Source: Tachypleus tridentatus (taxonomy: Eukaryota > Arthropoda > Merostomata > Xiphosura > Limulidae). Taken from it: 64,000 nucleotides of DNA. Positions 15,478 to 63,010 of the stretch are shown here, one piece after another (position 1 is the first letter of the stretch; the number at the start of each line of letters is the position of its first letter). The notes under the pieces are model-generated. The model was not told the origin of the DNA, did not search any database, and saw only the letters and a list, made by a program, of their open reading frames with translations. Location: the NCBI RefSeq assembly GCF_004210375.1, contig NC_134833.1:143956127-144020126 (forward strand), written 5' to 3'. The translations under genes and the position numbers were made by a program.

Positions 15478-15760
15478 CGGGCCTGGCATGGTCTAGCGCG
15501 TTAAGGCGTGCGCTTCGTAATCTGAGGGCCGCGGGTTCGCGCCCGAGTCGCGCCAAACATGCTCGCCCTTTCAGCCGTGGGGACGTTATAATGTGACGGT
15601 CAATCCCACTTTTCGTTGGTAAAAGAGTAGCCCAAGAGTTGGCGGTGGGTGGTGATGACAAGCTGCCTTCCCTCTAGTCTTACACTGCTAAATTAGGGAC
15701 GGCTAGCAGAGATAGCCCTCGAGTAGCTTTGTGCGAAATTCTAAAACAAACAGTCTCTAA
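15478..15760 (+). mobile_element. SINE family A with 15-bp target duplication
   Basis: Full-length copy with CTAAAACAAACAG tail. The flanks TGCTATTTATTTATC (15463-15477) and TGCTTTTTATTTATC (15761-15775) match at 14 of 15 positions. Confidence 0.92.
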
Positions 15761-25856: not shown

Positions 25857-27112
25857 CAAAACCATTTACTGTAAATAAGGTCTAGTCCCCAAAACCATTT
25901 AGTGTAAATAAGGTCCAGTCCCCAAAACCATTTAGTGTAAATAAGATCCAGACCCAAAACCATTTAGTGTAAATAAGATTCAGTCCCCAAAACCCTTTAG
26001 TCCCCAAAACCATTTAGTGTAAATAAGATCCAGCCCCCAAAACCATTTAGTGTAAATAAGATCCAGTCCCCAAAACCATTTAGTGTAAATAAGATCCAGC
26101 CCCCAAAACCATTTAGTGTAAATAAGATCCAGCCCCCAAAACCATTTAGTGTAAATAAGATCCAACCCCCAAAACCATTTAGTGTAAATAAGATCCAACC
26201 CCCAAAACCATTTAGTGTAAATAAGATCCAGTCCCCAAAACAATTTAGTGTAAATAAGATCCAACCCCCAAAACCCTTTAGTGTAAATAAGATCCAACCC
26301 CCAAAACCATTTAGTGTAAATAAGATCCAGCCCCCAAAACCATTTAGTGTAAATAAGATCCAGCCCCCAAAACCATTTAGTGTAAATAAGATCCAGTCCC
26401 CAAAACCATTTAGTGTAAATAAGATCCAACCCCCAAAACCATTTAGTGTAAATAAGATCCAGTCCCCAAAACCATTTAGTGTAAATCCAGAAAACCAGCC
26501 CCAGTCCCCAAAACCATTTAGTGTAAATAAGGTCCAGTCCCCAAAACCATTTAGTGTAAATAAGATCCAGCCCCAAAACCATTTAGTGTAAATAAGATCC
26601 AAAAACCATTTGGTGTAAATAAGATCCAAAACCATTTAGTGTAAATAAGATCCAGTGTCCAGTCCCCAAAACCATTTAGTGTAAATAAGATCCAGTCCCC
26701 AAAACCATTTAGTGTAAATAAGATCCAGCCCCCAAAACCATTTAGTGTAAATAAGATCCAGTCCCCAAAACCATTTAGTGTAAATAAGATCCATTTTAGT
26801 ATAAATAAGATCCAACCCCCAAAACCATTTAGTGTAAATAAGATCCAGTCCCCAAAACCATTTAGTGTAAATAAGGTCCAGTCCCCAAAACCATTTAGTG
26901 TAAATAAGATCCAACCCCCAAAACCATTTAGTGTAAATAAGATCCAACCCCCAAAACCATTTAGTGTAAATAAGATCCAGCCCCCAAAACCATTTGGTGT
27001 AAATAAGATCCAACCCAGAAAACCATTTAGTGTAAATAAGATCCAACCCTAAAACCATTTAGTGTAAATAAGATCCAACCCCCAAAACCATTTAGTGTAA
27101 ATAATGTCCAGT
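25857..27112. repeat. 33-bp minisatellite, about 38 units
   Basis: The unit AAAACCATTTAGTGTAAATA AGATCCAGTCCCC varies mainly at its end (CCAGTCC, CCAGCCC, CCAACCC). A few units are shortened or fused (for example 25981-26010, 26480-26510, 26585-26660, 26785-26810). Because 33 is divisible by three, the minus strand stays open for up to about 210 codons with an 11-residue repeat. These open frames are a property of the repeat, not evidence of a gene. Confidence 0.95.
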
Positions 27113-27114
27113 CC

Positions 27115-29350
27115 CCTTAACGTTAACAAATTAATTAATATTTTCTTTGACGTTTTTACAAGTTCCCTGTAACCTGTTGTATCTTAAGTGTATAGGTTTA
27201 CAAAGAACATTCAAACCGAAATACTTCGTTAACGGTACAATAATTTACGCAAAAAGTGAACTTGTACATTTTTACGGCTAATCAATCGAGAAACTAGATA
27301 TTTGCTACAACTAACACTGATCCAAACACTTCATTGAACTAAACTGAATAGAGAATATAAATGCTTATTTCACCATTCTCTGCTCGCTGAAAGCAAAGTA
27401 CTGATTTTCGTATTCATAATAAAATCATATTTCTTGGTACTACCCGAAGTTACCATACTTTCATGACAGAATTTGGAACTTTTTAGGCATACTATTACAA
27501 AATTACTTGATCTTAACTTCACGCACCCTCTAACTTACTAATCAAAACATTGAAAATGTAGTCCATAAAGTATTAATTGTAACTATTTGGTTATCTAACC
27601 GTTCTAATTATTTTCTTGTTTTTGATTTAGTGTTGTTTAAATGTAATACTTTATTTTATACCCACAACCTATTAATGTATAAACCAATTAATTGTTAGGC
27701 TAATATGATCCACAACTGGTTTTGGACAAACCTTTTATTTATATCCTTGGTGGAATATAAAATTTATAAGACGGAATAATAACTCATATAAATTTTCTTT
27801 TGCTTTGTAGAATAGCAGAGAGAAGATATCTGTAGAAGTTAGAACAATCAATCCAAAGTTTGACAAACATGGGAGCAAATGATATTCAAATATATACATC
27901 AACTAGGTGAAGATAATTTGGTTTTATTTTGTATTAAAAAAGAAAGAGTTATATCTCTACTTTATTTAAAATATTAGAATATGTAAAATGTGGAACTGAA
28001 ATGCTCTTACGTTACTTTGTATATTGCGTTATAAACTTTTCTCGTGTGTAATAACATTTGCAAAAGTTTCAGTTATATAATAATTTCAACATTTGGGTAT
28101 TACTATTAGACAGTTTGACTGTCCGGCAAACTTTAGCTATGCCTTTATAGAAATCACTTTTAATCAAATTATTCTGAATGTTTATTTCTTTTGCTGTGAA
28201 TTTACATTGTTTGCAAATATTATATAAGGTATCATGAAAATGATTCATTAACTATTATCCGTACAGTCATGCACTACGTAACAAGGAACCAGTTATTCTA
28301 TATGACGTCATGAAGGTTCAAGCCAATGACACAACCTTCCGAGTTAGACTCGGAAACACGAGCAATACTTTTTAACATTATTAATGTTTAAATGATATTT
28401 TGTATGAACCAAAAACTTAATAAATCAAAATTGCTTTATAATTTTTAGGGATCCTTAACGAGAGACAGTTGAGCACGATATAACAGCTTTGAAAAATGTC
28501 TTTAAACGAAATCATATTTTTGTTTTTACAGCAATAAAACTACATTCACTAGATGTGCTTCTCTTAATTATGATTTGTTAAAACATCACTTTAACTTATT
28601 AGAAATTAATACAACTACAAACTTGGCTGTTAGAATATCCAACGAATTACTTCTGTAAATAGACATGAATTCGAGAACTGTGAAATGAGCGACTTTGTAT
28701 GCGTGTCTTTAAACATGATCTGAGAGAATAATGGACGAAAACACATCAGTTAAAATATTTGAAAAGTGCTAAAAGTTTCTTTCAATCAAGAGGATAAATC
28801 AATATGATTTTAACAGTTCAATATGTGCATTAACCATAATGTACATGTACTCATATCGTGCACCTCGCATGGTAAAGCAACAGTGTCACACATTACATTC
28901 CAGGGATTGAGCAACTACAGGACTACGACCTTGGGTGATAACGCTACACAGATTCTTTAGTCACTTTTGACTCGTATTGCCACCTGTTGAGGAAAAAAGC
29001 TATTAATAAAAAACTGAACGTTTTAGTCACACGGATTAGATCGAACAACGAACGTGCCATTAACTATCATTATCTCATACTAGCAGAAAATTTGTCATAT
29101 GGGCAGTTGTTTGTGCTAATAATTAATCATCCTAGTATTCACACATCACCGTAATAAAACTTAAAACAAGCATTTTCTAGAAAAGTACGTTTTTCTGTAA
29201 AGTACTGGACACAACTCATTGCATCAAAAAGATTCAACGTACTGAACTTAAAAATTTCATAAATTTTACTGTAATGTTTTTACACATTAAAAATGTTATC
29301 TTTTATTTAAGGACTTCCGTTTTACAATGCTACATTTAAAATTACATAAA
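27115..29350. other. Intergenic sequence, nothing recognised
   Basis: AT-rich single-copy-looking sequence between the minisatellite and the SINE at 29354. Confidence 0.6.
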
Positions 29351-32497: not shown

Positions 32498-35400
32498 TCA
32501 AAATCTCTCTGACAGTCGACTTGCCATCTGTCGGAGATTTCCATAAACCTTGGAGGGAGGGCTTCCTACATGCACAAAAATGAAGCATTAAAAGTAATTA
32601 CCAGCCACATTAGTAAAGCAAATTACTTGAATAAAACAACAACAACAACAAAAAATCTTACCATGTAAAACTTTTTTTGTAAGGTTACACTTGTAACATT
32701 TCAAACTACAAAGATGTTTTATATACTATTTTTCTTCTCAAGTAATTTCATTAAGTTTTCAAGTTAAATCACATCTAAATAGTATTGTTATTATATTTTT
32801 AAAACATGATGCTTCCTCATAATAGTTTTACAAAACATTCAAATGAATATTTGACTTTTTTTCTCCCTGAGAAATCAAAAAAATATTATCTAAAATCATA
32901 GGGAATATTTTTCAAGTATTTTCCTCTTTTAATTCTCATGTACTTATTCCAAGTAATACTTCTTTAGACATGTCCTAACCACACCTATACAGTGGTACCT
33001 CGGTTCTCAAACTTAATCTGTTCCAAAAGGCTGTTCAAAAACTGAATAAATTTTTCCCATAAGAAATACTGTAAATTAAATTTACAGTATTTCCATAAAT
33101 ACTCCATAAATTACGCATTATGAAGCATTTTAAGTAAAAATATTGCTTATTTACATCTGTATAATGATACTTACATGCATAAAGTCAACCACAAAAACTA
33201 TAAACACAATAAAAAAACAATAAACGAAAATTTAACTGCACTTTACCTGTGCTGAGGAAAGCTGATGGCATAAGTGAAAGGCGGTGAAGAACGTGGAGAG
33301 TAGGAGGGTTATTATTGTTTGGAAGGGGAGTCACCTTCCATAAAAACGTCAGGTAACTCTCCTTCTGGGGTTCTTTCTCTTTTCTGTCTCTTTGCACCAC
33401 TACAACCTGCTTGAGACTCACTGGACCTATTTCTCACTAAAATCTTGTCTAATGAGGTTTGTTTCTGCCTGGCACCCTCCCCATGTCTCACCACACTATG
33501 TGTGCCACTTCTCTTCCTAAATTTTTCAAACCACCCCCTACTAGCCTTAAAGGCATCACTTGTATCAGCACTCGTTCCAGGAGGTCAGCATAAAACTGTT
33601 TTGCTTTCTCACAAATGATGGTCTAAGAAATGCTATCACAGGCTGTTTTTTGTTTATCCAAATCAACAACAGTTTTTCTACCTCTTCCATTGTTTGTGAT
33701 CTTTGTTTCGTAAGCACTGTCACTCCTTTTGCAACATCAGCTCCTTTGATGACTTCTTTATTTTTCAGTGTGGGGCAGACTGTAGACTTTGCCATGCCAA
33801 ACTGTGTAGCAAGGTCAGATACGCGAATACCACTCATACTTTGCAGTGAGATCTTTTTTTACCTCTATTGTGGCTCTAACAACTTTTCTTTTTGGTTTGC
33901 TGCTTTCATTATCATTCTTTGAACCCATGGTGGCTTATTTAATCAGAATATTTAGAGAAACAACAAAGAAAGAAAAACGAGAACGTTCACAGCAGATTTT
34001 AGCAGGGATGTGGACTGAGTGACAGGTGCAGGTAAAATGTTTTAGGCAAGCTTAGCATGGGCCAAAAATGGTCGAAAGGTCGTTCGGGTCATCAGTTGGA
34101 TTATTTTGAAGGTTCGGATCACGACATTTTGGTTTGGGAACCCAGTTTATGTTTGACAACTGAGACACTTTTTTCTCAAACAATATGTTCGAAAACTGAA
34201 TTGTTCGAGAACCGAGGTACCACTGTATTGGGGAAAGAGCTTCTGTAAATAATGTTTTGTAATGTTTCTCAGCTTGAAACAGGTTTGTATTTATGTTTGA
34301 TATTTTAAAAGCAAGAATACTGTATGTTCCAGCCCTTATTAAGGGAACCCTAATTTGTACACATGAAGGAAAGTGAAAATACATATTTAATATTTAGTAA
34401 ATCTCATAAAAAAATTGTATGAATTGATGTAATGATTCCACCACATCATTAAATAATTACTTTTGTGTCACTTTAAACCTTAATATATAGAACAACCAGT
34501 ATCATTTGGAATATTATCATAAAAAACAGTATAGAAATGTAGTTACCCATAATTAAGCTGCAAATAGCAGTCCTGGCAGCTCTAATATTCTGGTAAGAGC
34601 CTAATATATGGATTTTGCTGCAAGAAAAAATTATCAAACCAATTAACACTATCAAATTCTTACCACAAAAACAAGATTTAAGACATTTCACAAGCACATA
34701 CAACTGTATAGCTAAGTTTAAACAATGATGTGCTTTAAGGTTCAAGGAAAAGTTTCATAAGTTGATACTTGTTTAATAACACAAAACTGCTATATTTGTC
34801 CCGAAGAATATAATTCCATGTATTATACTTGAAACATTTAATGACAATCATTGCATTGCAAGGTATTAACAATCATGTGCTTTAGGTTTAAAGGAAAATT
34901 TGCAAATGTTAACACTAGTTGGATAACACCAAATTAACTGCTACGTGTGTCCTAAAAAGTTTTCCATACAAAAGAAATGAAACATTTAACAGCCAAACTA
35001 CGAAAAAGATAGGTAATCCTTTCTAAACTGAAGATAAAACAAACAAACATAAACACATTGTATTAGCAACTTTGTACAATGGCATGTTTGTTCTTAAGCT
35101 GAAAATAGCAATTTGGACCCAAAAATACTTAAAATTATAAATAAGTCCAAATTTCAAATGCTGCACAATTTTCTTATTTATTTTACAATGTATCTCAGGT
35201 AACAACTAACTCATTATATCAAAATTGTTGTTGTTAACTTTAGTAAAGCAGTTTATTTCAGATGCATTATGATGTATGTGGATTTCTCTAAGTGTGGATA
35301 TTAAAGAACAGACCTACCTGTCAGCTAACACAATCCTCGTTTTTGTGACATTTTCAATAGTAAACTTAGTCTTGCCTCCTTTACCAGCTATTCTTCCTAT

Positions 35401-57697: not shown

Positions 57698-60055
57698 ATG
57701 GCAACTAAAGAAGATAGAGAGTTCGACTTTGTAGTGTTTGGAGCCACTGGTGTCACAGGGCAATATGTTGTTGAGGAAGTTGCAAGAATTTACAAAGAAG
57801 AGAACTTAAAATGGGCAGTGGCAGGACGAAATGTTGATAAGTTGAGAAATGTCCTCGTTGAGGTGGCGAAGAATATTGGCGAAGGTACTTGGAAGTTGTG
57901 TAGGCTTAAATATTACCTAGCTCTACTACTACGACAAGTATTACTACGTTAAGATATGCGTGGGGTAATGTTGTTCTGTAGGGCCGGGTAAGGACGTACA
58001 TAGCAGGAATGATGTAATAAGTTGGGTGTTGTCATGGAAGAGGAAACTAAGTAGTTTTAATAATTATTAAGACCTAGCGCCATTTATATTATTATGTTAT
58101 ATTTACATTTCGCAATGAAACTTCGAATGAAGTTATTGTTAACATATTTGAATGTTTCGAATTTTATTAAGTTTTCATATATCTTAATTTGTAAGTTGTA
58201 GAACATTTAATTTGTAATGATTTAAGAGTTTATTAAGTGTCTTAAGATTACTATTGTTAATTATAGAATTAACACTTATATGACACTGTCAGTATTCATT
58301 GAAAGGAATAGAAACCGTTGGCTACTTAAACTTTATAATTTTAACTAGTTCATTAAATGCTTAAATTAAGATAAAGTCTAATACGTCATTTAGTTCAATA
58401 CTGTTGTAGAGTTGTAATTTGTACAATCTATGACACTCAACTCTTTATAATTAACCCTGAACAAAGGTAATTTAGAATGACCACTATGCTTGATAGTGGT
58501 GTGTGTGTGTTCTTTATTCACCAGAGTAGCACTATATTTATATAGAATTTGTAGCATTAATGTTATTTTATTCTTTGAGATTATTTAGTAGAGAAATTAT
58601 TTATAATAACAAATATAAATTGAGTTTTTTATTTTGTTCTCCACTTGTCACTGAGTTGCATTAAATTCAGAAATTCCATTGAATGTAGATTTTCAAATAT
58701 TCAAAATCATTCAGTTATAAGCAATATTTTTAATGGCTATTTACTTGAAGGATCTAGTCATTACTTCATATTCTTTAAATTTCATGTAGGAGTAAGGATA
58801 ATAAATACTCATTGGTGAATTATTCAGTGTATTAACCTGGTACCAAAGTAACTGTTCTTAAGGGTAGTCTAAAATAACAAAATATTAAACAACTTATTAC
58901 ATGGAGAAGATCAAGCATAAGCAGAAATAGCAGTCATCTCTATAGTTTCTAGGCTTATGCCATACCATTGGAATTCCAAAAGCCAGACATTTTTCTCACC
59001 TTCAGTACATTGCCTTAACTGTTTTGATGTAAGTGGTGCAAACATTCTGTGGAGGGCATGATTTGCTTTTGTTTTTAAGTTTTATTCCAAAATGTGTACC
59101 TTCTGACAAATTCTGGTGTTTTTGCTTTGTTTCTTTACAAAAAAATTTACTACAATTATAACATTATGTTGCTGCCATAGTAACAACATTGAAAAAAGAA
59201 TAAATATTGAAGTGCATGTACAAAGAAATACTATCAAGAAATGACATGATGTGTGCCCTGTTAACAGTTCATATACTAGCAGTGTTTCTCCAGGATTACA
59301 GAATCTTCAATAAGACTTGTTACGATTGGTCTAGAAACCTCTATAGCCAGAGATGTGAACTTTTTAAACATAATAAAATCTGACCTAATTCCAATAAAAA
59401 AAAATTATTCACTTGCATAAACAAACAACTTTGTGAAAAAATCTATACATGATGGAGAGAAATGGATACAATTTTTTGATTTGAGTGTACAGGAATTAGA
59501 ACCTGTAAAAATTTCCAGATAATATAACTTTAGCAGGTCTGTTATTACTTCATTTTTTTTTTTTTCAGACAACTGAAAACATCTTAAACATCCTTACAAC
59601 ATTAAGCTAGAAATTAACATAGTAACTTAGATTCACTGAACTTTGGAAAATGTTTTTGATATTTGAAGTAATTTAAGAATATTAAACAAAAGTTATTAGT
59701 GTAGGCCTACTATGCACAATAAATTTTTAACAGTAAATTGCAATACTCTAAAGTATGGTTGTAGATAAAAACCAAAGGTTTCTGCATTTTAATTTTATGA
59801 AATTAAGTGCTGATGGTATGTTATGATCTGACTTATCTCTTAAATTTAAATAAATCTTTCATTATTAAACTTAACAAATTTTATTAATCACTCTTATAAA
59901 TGGCTGTAGAAATTACAAAATATCTTAAATGTGTAAATTGTTTTTTAGAAGGATCCTTGGATGGAGTGAGTGTAATTCAAGCAGATGTGAATGATGAAGA
60001 TTCTCTGTATGAAATGTGCAAACAAAGTCGACTCATTCTTAACACTGTAGGACCA
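57698..60055 (+). CDS. SCCPDH: Saccharopine dehydrogenase-like oxidoreductase (SCCPDH type), exons 1-2, 3' end outside window
   Basis: Exon 1 (57698-57884) encodes 62 codons plus one base. It starts with an acidic N-terminus, then a beta strand and the dinucleotide-binding loop GATGVTG (residues 15-21), then a WAVAGR strand typical of this Rossmann family. Intron 1 (57885-59948) is GT-AG. Exon 2 (59949-60055) restores the frame and ends in the family's LNTVGP motif directly before a GTAAGT donor. The next conserved block (YRFYGEP-like) was not found before 64000, so the gene is cut by the window edge. The chosen ATG has G at -3 and +4; an in-frame ATG at 57659 has a weak context. The family is associated with lipid droplets and membranes in animals and its substrate is not settled. 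The exon 2 end is the seed of a large minisatellite. Confidence 0.87.
57885..59948 (+). other. SCCPDH intron 1
   Basis: GT-AG intron of 2064 bp, CpG-poor after about 58.1 kb, with the dispersed repeat at 59281-59500 and no other recognised content. Confidence 0.8.
59281..59500 (+). repeat. Dispersed repeat related to 37.9 kb
   Basis: A stretch of about 50 bp at 59432-59480 (AAAAAATCTATACATGATGG, then AGAGAAATGGATACAATTTTTTGATT) matches 37940-37985 in the same orientation. A CAGTGTTTCTCCAG hAT-end-like motif lies 150 bp upstream. It falls in SCCPDH intron 1. Confidence 0.45.
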
Positions 60056-60792
60056 GTAAGTATTTGTTTGTCTTAACACTGTAGGACCAGTAAGTATTTG
60101 TTTGTCTTAACACTGTAGGACCAGTAAGTATTTGTTTGTCTTAACACTGTAGGACCAGTAAGTATTTGTCTGTCTTAACACTGTAGGACCAGTAAGTATT
60201 TGTTTGTCTTAACACTGTAGGACCAGTAAGTATTTGTTTGTCTTAACACTGTAGGACCAGTAAGTATTTGTTTGTCTTAACACTGTAGGACCAGTAAGTA
60301 TTTGTTTGTCTTAACACTGTAGGACCAGTAAGTATTTGTTTGTCTTAACACTGTAGGACCAGTAAGTATTTGTTTGTCTTAACACTGTAGGACCAGTAAG
60401 TATTTGTTTGTCTTAACACTGTAGGACCAGTAAGTATTTGTCTGTCTTAACACTGTGTGTATTTGAAACTGTAATTTGTCTGTCTTAACACTGTAGGACC
60501 AGTAAGTTTTATGCTATACATAATTGAAAGATTTGATCTTATTCATAGCTGTCTTAAGATTTGTCTGTCTTAACACTGTAGGAGACCAGTAAGTATTTGT
60601 TCAGTGATGTATTTGTCTGTCTTAACACTGTAGGACCAGTAAGTATTTGTCAACACTGTAGGACCAGTAAGTATTTGTCTGTCTTAACACTGTAGGACCA
60701 GTAAGTATTTGTCTGTCTTAACACTGTAGGACCAGTAAGTATTTGTTTGTCTTAACACTGTAGGACCAGTAAGTATTTGTTTGTGTGTGAAA
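60038..60792 (+). repeat. 34-bp minisatellite carrying repeated copies of the SCCPDH exon 2 end and 5' splice site
   Basis: The unit is about 34 bp, CTTAACACTGTAGGACCA followed by GTAAGTATTTGTTTGT. It begins inside the coding end of exon 2 and continues into intron 2. About 19 copies of ACCAGTAAGT can be counted between 60053 and 60775, twelve of them in a near-perfect run to about 60435. After that come irregular units, some with inserted bases (GGAGACCAG) or truncated. A separate stretch beginning AAGTTTTATGCTATAC occurs at about 60505 and again at about 60796, so a larger segment was duplicated too. The second copy probably marks the original intron sequence. Confidence 0.93.
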
Positions 60793-60839
60793 AATAAGTT
60801 TTATGCTATACATAATTGAAAGATTTGATCTTATTCATA

Positions 60840-63010
60840 GCAAGATTTGGAGACCCGTGTTCAGTGATGTTCCTACAAGGAAGGGGGGGGGGGCTCTGAA
60901 GCTTTAGTTGAAGACAATCCTAGACATTCTGGAGATAATTTTGCCTTGTTTTCCTGTGCCTTTGTTTATTTTGTTGGTTTCTCAGTCTTCCTGTGTGATA
61001 GTGATAAGCTTTCAAACTTAGTGTAGAAATCTGAGGTTAAGTTCATTATAGTGGACAAAGCCATAACAAAAACTTGTGTAGCAATGTTTCAAACAGGAAT
61101 TAGAACAGTCTGTAAAATAAAGGTGGTTGTAATGCCTGGGAGTGAATATTTAGTTCTCTACTCACAAGATATTGTGGTTCATGCAGGGGTTAACTGCTCA
61201 GTTGTATGATGAGGTAGTTTTGCCTCATTCACATGGTTATCAAGACTGACTTTAGCCTACCACCAGATGGAAGCATTTTTCAACTCCCAAATAATACATC
61301 TGCTCCTTAAATAGAGGCTCTAAAGTGGAGTTTGTAGATAACTTGCATATATCACTGTCTGCTAGTGGGAAAGTGGTAAGATTTTGGATTTGTAAATCTT
61401 GCATCTAATGTGTTATTTTCCTGCCACTAAATCTTTGGTTCAGGATCATAATCTTCACTGAAGTGAAGCTTTTGCTATGTGCATTGTTTTGATTGGACGT
61501 TTTGTTCAGCCCTGTTGATGTTGGCATCTTGACTTTCATTGACCAATAAGGTGGGTCATTGTTCTGCATCTATTCAAGGTTCCAATCCTGACATTATCTC
61601 CTTGGTACACTGGTAACCAAAATAGATTCTGTACTCATCCAAGGGATCCACTAGTTGGTTGGAATGCTGTGAGCAGTTCTGCTGATTGTCTATCTTCTGT
61701 GTCTGAGGGGTTTGGCTTTTAGAATTTCTGGATGTGGTCATCTTAACTACATATTTGTGAACACTATTGGTCCTTGAGTCAAGATTAATCATTCAGTTCA
61801 CTTCCACTATTCACCCAACCTGATATATTTGTCTTATACTGCTCTTTGGATTTGGGAACCAAGTTTTATCTCATTATGGTTGGTCTGGGAGGGGGTATGT
61901 ATATATCTATGTATAATAGCTGTTTTAGTTATTCCAGGTTTTTATTTCTGTGTTTGGCCTAAGAGGACAGGACTAGTGCAGTTAAGGGTTTTTATCTTCA
62001 GACTAGCATTATAAATTCTGCTAAATTGTATAAGCTTTTATTACTTCCATTTCTTAACCCTCTATACATGTCATTCAATAGAAGATTGGTTACTTCTGGC
62101 ACTATCTCAAACTGTTAGAATGTTGCACCTGGATTCTTCTTTCAGAAACAACAAACACAGGTTTCATTTTCAGAGTTAAGACACTTGTTCTTGCTCTAAC
62201 TCAGTGATGTCAGTTTGGGTGTTTTTTATTTTTCTTTTATTTCTGTCAGGCTTAGCAGATTCCCATCTGGTTCCACACTATGGAACAAGAAGCCTGATGT
62301 TATCTCTTGCTACACGTATCGTTTTTTTTTTTTTTTGGAATGGCAGCATCACTTGAATCTATTTATGCCTTTTGTGAAGAGAGCACAAGAGACCTTTTTA
62401 ATGGTCTTTATGTGACCAGTGGATCATAACTGTCAATTAACTGGATTTCCCAATTTCCTTGTTAAGGATCATTCTTCAATCTTGAAGGGTTAACTTCAGA
62501 CACTACTAAGACCTGGGTTCATCTGCTCTCAGCTTGTCCAGAGATTCTTCTTATGAATCCCTTGCTTCAGGGACAGATTGCATATCCCATCAGTTGGGAA
62601 TTTCATGGTCTATGCACAGATAACTATCTACACAACATTTTAGTCATTTTTATTTTATGAAAAGTGCTGTCTCAGGGACTTGGGTTATTAGTGTTACTCT
62701 AAATCTGTCGTAGTTTCTTCCATTTTCCGTCAAGGGGGCACTTTATGCTCATTTTCAAACCTTGGCTCTTTTTTGGGACCACTCCCATCATGTTGCTGTA
62801 CTAACGTGCCCTATTCCACAAGTGATGTCTTTTTAGTAACAGATCAGTTGTTTCAATCCAAATAGGTCCTCCCAACAGAATAGTTTAGATTGCAAGGTTT
62901 TATGGTGGAATGGCTCTCATTTTCAAACACTTTGATGGGTTAGCCACTCTTTGGGAATACTTAACTACTGGTAGTTTGGTCTACAATGCTTAACCATTGA
63001 GCTTTGGCAA
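60840..63010 (+). other. SCCPDH intron 2 sequence with possible decayed retroelement
   Basis: A G11 run lies near 60885. The stretch 61130-63000 has less AT-rich, coding-like composition with repeated short open pieces on the plus strand, but no motif I can name. The expected third SCCPDH exon was not found here. Confidence 0.35.

Follow-up and report, generated by a model that had tools for sequence, protein, structure and literature searches.

The boundary between exon 2 and intron 2 of the horseshoe crab SCCPDH gene is reiterated in a minisatellite of near-identical 34-bp units that carries 19 copies of the 5' splice site GTAAGT. The array lies in a stretch of 64,000 nucleotides of Tachypleus tridentatus DNA, referred to here as the window, in whose coordinates all positions are given (Table 1). 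Coagulogen, a horseshoe crab protein, agrees with this origin. The coagulin family PF02035 scores above its cut-off at 19 places in the genome, and four of these, located on one contig, cover successive pieces of the profile; none of 14 control genomes matched, although these are all bacterial or archaeal and so tell little about other animals. Two of the exons differ by a single substitution over 88 query residues from the solved coagulogen 1aoc_A of Tachypleus tridentatus, with 7 residues at the exon junction, omitted from the query, appearing as a gap, which points to a horseshoe crab and probably to Tachypleus. Although the 19 donors are equivalent in their local sequence, the first is the only one that restores the normal coding junction, and transcripts spliced from any of the others would run into one shared stop codon. 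We consider it likely that the array grew by local duplication of the junction and rides along as a passive part of intron 2.

The gene that harbors the array can be followed through the window and beyond its end. A tblastn search with a human SCCPDH sequence, run against the window plus 30 kb downstream (offsets continue the window numbering), returned nine colinear matches extending from 57698 to offset 79988, with E values from 1.4e-12 to 0.086. Exon 2 alone matched with an E value of 0.006; the match at 73935 (E 0.009) contains an internal stop, probably the mark of an exon edge; and a tenth match, on the minus strand (E 4.4), was taken as chance. When joined, exons 1 and 2 form an open frame of 98 aa that matches Pfam PF03435 (Sacchrp_dh_NADP, the N-terminal saccharopine dehydrogenase NADP-binding domain) with an E value of 2.9e-6 and a score of 28.1 bits, above the curated cut-off of 25.1. 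Exon 3 (81 nt, phase 0, in frame) begins with YRFYGE at offset 65480, 1.5 kb past the end of the window, and is separated from exon 2 by an intron of 5,424 nt that runs from GTAAGTATTT to CTGTATATAG. Splicing through donor 1 yields the open frame LNTVGP/YRFYGE, with no stop through exon 3. By homology, donor 1 (60056) is the coding junction of SCCPDH exon 2. The sequence-only reading had placed the start of the repeat unit in SCCPDH exon 2, within the codons for LNTVGP; the domain match, the homology along the gene and the clean VGP/YRFYGE junction uphold this assignment and make it very unlikely that the repeated sequence is not an exon end.

SCCPDH appears to be a single-locus gene in this assembly. 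Exons 1 and 2 match one locus in the genome, the other match (E 0.298) lying on another contig and containing internal stops, and no second SCCPDH copy that could serve as an outgroup was found in the genome search. A genome-wide Pfam profile search, which missed the split exons of SCCPDH here, yielded a single match elsewhere, below threshold and on a different contig. Among the 27 PDB sequences that matched exons 1 and 2 up to an E value of 1, none was significant, the best being a complex I subunit (E 0.078).

Table 1. Features of the SCCPDH exon 1 to intron 2 region (window coordinates)
Feature	Position	Strand	Basis
Coding portion of SCCPDH exon 1, from ATG to GAAG; donor GTACTT	57698..57884	+	tblastn, E 1.4e-12
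SCCPDH exon 2 (107 nt, phase 0), acceptor TTTTTTAG, 3' end GGACCA	59949..60055	+	joined exons 1 and 2, Pfam PF03435
34-bp minisatellite across the exon 2/intron 2 boundary	60037..60784	+	TRF and GTAAGT count, 19 donors
Twelve uninterrupted units	60037..60444	+	2/408 bases off consensus
Donor 1	60056..60061	+	only one of 19 joining exons 2 and 3 in frame without a stop
In-frame TAA met from any of the other 18 donors	60074..60076	+	translation of extended exons
Aberrant unit without GTAAGT	60445..60482	+	unit comparison
Colinear but interrupted copy of intron flank, unit fragments between	60503..60610	+	comparison with 60795-60870
Second unit block, donors 15 to 19	60620..60784	+	unit comparison
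Intron 2 flank, partly repeated within the array	60795..60870	+	flank-array comparison

The repeat was delimited by TRF, which reports a period of 34 bp and, by its own count, 22.0 copies. Each unit combines 19 nt from the 3' end of SCCPDH exon 2 (TCTTAACACTGTAGGACCA) with the 15 nt that open intron 2 (GTAAGTATTTGTTTG). GTAAGT occurs 41 times in the entire window and exactly 19 times inside the array, from 60056 to 60769, bearing out the initial description of a minisatellite built from a coding exon end plus its 5' splice site, with about 19 donors. The order CTTAAC...TGTAG, GACCA, GTAAGT that had been read in the unit was also confirmed, with a distance of 5 nt from AG to donor. Two other parts of that description hold in modified form: the unit does recreate the exon end and the donor, but its exonic part amounts to 19 nt and not to some 15, and the 34-nt step between donors is constant for donors 1-12 alone, after which an irregular zone breaks the array and makes the spacings 72, 87, 50, 28, 34, 34 and 34 nt. 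Units 1-12 are contiguous and vary at a sole position, a T/C site with C in two of the twelve units, a near-identity suggesting that the expansion was recent or that the units have been kept uniform by exchange.

Neither the window nor a genome search limited to its best candidates yielded the unit sequence at another locus. The window contains 18 occurrences of the 23-mer CTTAACACTGTAGGACCAGTAAG at up to three mismatches, all 18 within the array; 100 shuffled windows contained none, and the 23-mer has no exact match among viral contigs. A genome search with the exon end plus two units, in which common words were skipped and the best candidates only were scored, returned ten matches, all of them at the SCCPDH locus and inside the window; within that scope, the result fits a local origin, and a dispersed repeat or transposon as the source of the unit was rejected. 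No inverted repeats of at least 14 nt were found within 59900-60950, and no Rfam families at gathering scores in the window.

Local sequence does not set the first donor apart from those that follow. A 9-base donor score gives a 19-way tie, leaving donor 1 without an advantage in local strength. On a crude matrix, CCA/GTAAGT is outscored by 56 of the window's 3662 GT sites; the U1 duplex at this donor is worth -7.5 kcal/mol (52 of 3662 GT sites pair better), and that at the exon 1 donor -5.6. The consequences of donor choice are a different matter. From donors 2-19, VSICLS would be added after exon 2 and the first stop, in 18 of 18 cases, is the TAA at 60074-60076, located 13 to 692 nt upstream of the end of the extended exon. 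Given that this stop precedes the end of the extended exon and lies upstream of the later exons, nonsense-mediated decay of such transcripts would be expected. The sequence-only reading was therefore right that the first donor alone keeps the normal exon, but its expectation that later donors would change the frame two times in three misses the point: 14 of the 18 shift the frame and four keep it, a split made irrelevant by the common TAA, at which all 18 would be truncated.

The zone that interrupts the array is itself made of recognizable pieces. Positions 60503-60549 are an exact 47-nt copy of the flank at 60795-60841, and after this copy come three shorter blocks (8, 7 and 13 nt), which stand in flank order with pieces of the array unit between them. 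A test restricted to these three small blocks, with the 47-nt block excluded, showed that their chain of 28 nt was reached by none of 2000 flank shuffles and by none of 5000 other window 39-mers. Read most simply, the array end and about 76 nt of flank were duplicated once, and unit pieces then invaded at short homologies (TAAGT and ATTTG, for example).

Minisatellites of this architecture have precedents in other animals. In amphioxus they are called mirages, reportedly after an original description in Nucl Acids Res in 2002. Two papers (PMC3087553, PMC3902484) describe mirages in Adh3, in the globins BflGb6 and BflGb9 and in troponin C, with imperfect ones in PGBD5; Adh3 units measure 10-72 bp, the two BflGb6 haplotypes contain units of about 150-160 bp, 6 in one and 3 in the other, and somatic and length instability is reported. 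Like these mirages, the SCCPDH array spans an exon-intron boundary, starting inside exon 2, and its units repeat a splice signal. Unlike them, it resides in a horseshoe crab and not in a cephalochordate, and in a different gene, the cephalochordate lineage being, in the reports found, the place where mirages occur and not part of their anatomical definition. With 19 donors and near-identical units, it also differs from the 6- and 3-unit BflGb6 mirage described there.

The second precedent is the VNTR in intron 18 of human ABCA7, which, according to PMC5954066, has a 25-bp unit beginning at the exon 18 donor GT, 23.7 copies in the reference and a size that varies between about 12 and about 427 units. 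When the donor one unit onward is used, one unit stays in the transcript, and this retention, 2 +/- 1% at steady state, is independent of VNTR size in that account; exon 19 skipping, in contrast, increases with VNTR length. Since PTC transcripts rose substantially when translation was blocked with cycloheximide (same source), the 2% underestimates second-donor choice. As far as the VNTR is described there, the SCCPDH array resembles it in lying directly at the exon end and in offering a donor in every unit except the aberrant one at 60445-60482, and SCCPDH exon 3, at 81 nt and in frame, could be skipped in frame as is ABCA7 exon 19. The two differ in that the described start of the VNTR is the GT itself, whereas the SCCPDH array also repeats 19 nt of exon end; furthermore, ABCA7 is known to vary in the population and to undergo exon 19 skipping, while the SCCPDH array is known from one assembly.

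Tandem duplications that copy splice signals are also described, in PMC4974935, for ATP2A1, for potato RdRp and for 24-bp repeats in fission yeast. The SCCPDH duplication copies splice signals as these do, but its duplicated segment straddles the boundary where theirs, as described, are exonic, and it has created no new intron, the old one having been lengthened at its 5' end. PMC2812944 mentions human repeats of variable length that sit at exon-intron boundaries and may give rise to new introns. In the paper collection searched, no report linked SCCPDH, tandem repeats and splicing. The SCCPDH array is of the mirage or ABCA7 kind; the kind is already known, and its host here belongs to another animal lineage.

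These features are most readily accommodated by a passive minisatellite of local origin, removed with intron 2 whenever donor 1 is used, and we hold this explanation with good though incomplete confidence. The exon 2/intron 2 junction of SCCPDH would have been tandemly duplicated in place, and the array presumably then enlarged by unequal exchange or replication slippage. With the expanded part being intronic, the gene would continue to work as long as the spliceosome picks donor 1, which adjoins the real exon body, and the remaining array would leave with the 5.4-kb intron 2. Donor 1 would be expected to dominate in vivo, and transcripts arising from rare use of donor 2 or later would be lost to nonsense-mediated decay. 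The copy number of the array presumably varies, and the net effect is likely to be either none or a slight, length-dependent loss of SCCPDH mRNA. The ancestral intron 2 may have started with either GTAAGTATTTG or GTAAGTTTTATG.

Three other explanations were weighed against this one. The irregular zone, which blends flank and unit pieces at short homologies, is what a misassembly might produce, and the legend of Additional file 4 of PMC3087553 indicates that a mirage seemed aberrantly assembled in the amphioxus draft. An artefact affecting part or all of the array would mean that the true allele is shorter and that 60445-60619 derives from mixing of consensus or haplotypes. We think this quite improbable: the window is without any N and belongs to a 169-Mb contig in a 2.17-Gb assembly of 205 contigs, no alternative contig was found in the genome search, and the small blocks do derive from the flank, a result that alone cannot separate biology from misassembly. 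A different possibility is that the units supply 5-nt microexons (GACCA), or a series of short introns, with TGTAG as acceptor and GTAAGT as donor, as the joint repetition of AG, GACCA and GTAAGT and the branch-like CTTAAC would allow. An acceptor-like AG beside the donor was part of the sequence-only reading, and its placement and its rank on the crude matrix stand: 98 of the 3595 window AGs score above the two intronic array TAGs examined (top 3%) and 147 above the exonic array TAG, compared with 1100 above the real exon 2 acceptor, which ranks below the array TAGs. The branch-point geometry is poor, however, the branch-like A of CTTAAC lying 8 nt from its own unit's TAG and, toward the next unit, having closer AGs (at 14 and 18 nt) ahead of that unit's TAG at 42 nt, and for this reason the array TAGs probably do not work as acceptors. 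In addition, the insertion of one 5-nt microexon would shift the frame, and the smallest intron in such a series, 29 nt, would be below the sizes known for animals. We regard working microexons or short introns as extremely improbable.

The third explanation gives the array a function: as a length-dependent splicing attenuator, its identical U1 sites would compete with donor 1 or fold over it, generating PTC transcripts or exon 3 skipping, so that copy number tunes SCCPDH output. In support of this idea, the 19 donors are identical and fairly strong (-7.5 kcal/mol with U1), and exon 3 (81 nt, phase 0) is like ABCA7 exon 19, which is skipped in frame more as the VNTR lengthens (PMC5954066). The folding model also predicts that donor 1 is occluded, its mean unpaired value being 0.13 in the array versus 0.61 in a one-unit version, with predicted accessibility across the 19 donors ranging from 0.13 to 0.40. 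This predicted drop would argue for some effect of the array and is one of the few hints toward a functional effect. The fold itself is less telling. RNA consisting of exon 2 and the first 12 units folds better than ordinary shuffles (z -3.71), none of 100 of which equaled it. When the units themselves were shuffled and then arrayed, however, an equally good fold resulted from 71 of 200 dinucleotide shuffles and from 47 of 200 letter shuffles, indicating that the strong fold results from repetition itself; a special RNA structure of the array was rejected on these grounds. One, two or three units as RNA, and three units as DNA on either strand, were not distinct from shuffles. The precedents speak against attenuation as well: PMC3087553 and PMC3902484 report no splicing disturbance from the mirages of Adh3, the globins and troponin C, and frame-shifting events in ABCA7 are independent of length (PMC5954066). 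Taken with the shuffled-unit folds, this leaves the attenuator an unlikely explanation, and the passive minisatellite of local origin is preferred.

The genomic background is rich in tandem arrays. Twenty evenly spaced 10-kb samples from three contigs of the same genome were searched for arrays with a period of 10-100 bp and at least five copies, which cover 21,912 of the 200,000 bases and occur in 4 of the 20 stretches, two of them mostly array. Outside that count and by the same criteria, the window contains 1,866 of 64,000 array bases, and three downstream loci contain 0 of 30,000. With arrays this frequent, one that crosses an exon end somewhere would be expected. The periods in the four array-bearing samples range from 35 to 74 bp, and the arrays cover 9,562, 3,832, 7,905 and 613 bases.

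Other repeats were noted along the way. A larger minisatellite at window positions 25857-27116, with a 33-bp unit (CCCCAAAACCATTTAGTGTAAATAAGATCCAGC) and a TRF score of up to 1651, begins shortly after a SINE-like element and differs by eye from the SCCPDH unit. The 21-mer TCTTACACTGCTAAATTAGGG occurs five times in the 64 kb (near 15678, 25140, 54829 and 63466 on the plus strand and 29424 on the minus strand) and belongs to a dispersed element that resembles a SINE and has a tRNA-like head; such an element is known from horseshoe crab sequences. The minus strand at 33312-33584 holds a remnant like a Tc5-type transposase DNA-binding domain (PF03221, 1.1e-3, under the cut-off). At another locus, a tandem repeat at about 1871-2480 reads as the repeated open frame YELLNKYIKT; with a coagulogen exon some 200 bp away, it is probably intronic.

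Exon-boundary minisatellites, which we found reported from lancelets and human genes, are now extended to a chelicerate. Because its 19 serial donors are equal and use of any but the first would include a stop, the SCCPDH array constitutes a natural test of how the spliceosome chooses among identical donors, one in which each junction reveals which donor was used. By analogy with the length-dependent skipping of exon 19 in ABCA7, the array might even be a natural copy-number rheostat for horseshoe crab SCCPDH, its length setting the rate of exon 3 skipping or of misses at donor 1, with slips to later donors decaying, a role we consider rather improbable. If it did act in this way, the stop in the first intronic unit would ensure that whatever is spliced from the later of the 19 identical U1 sites decays.
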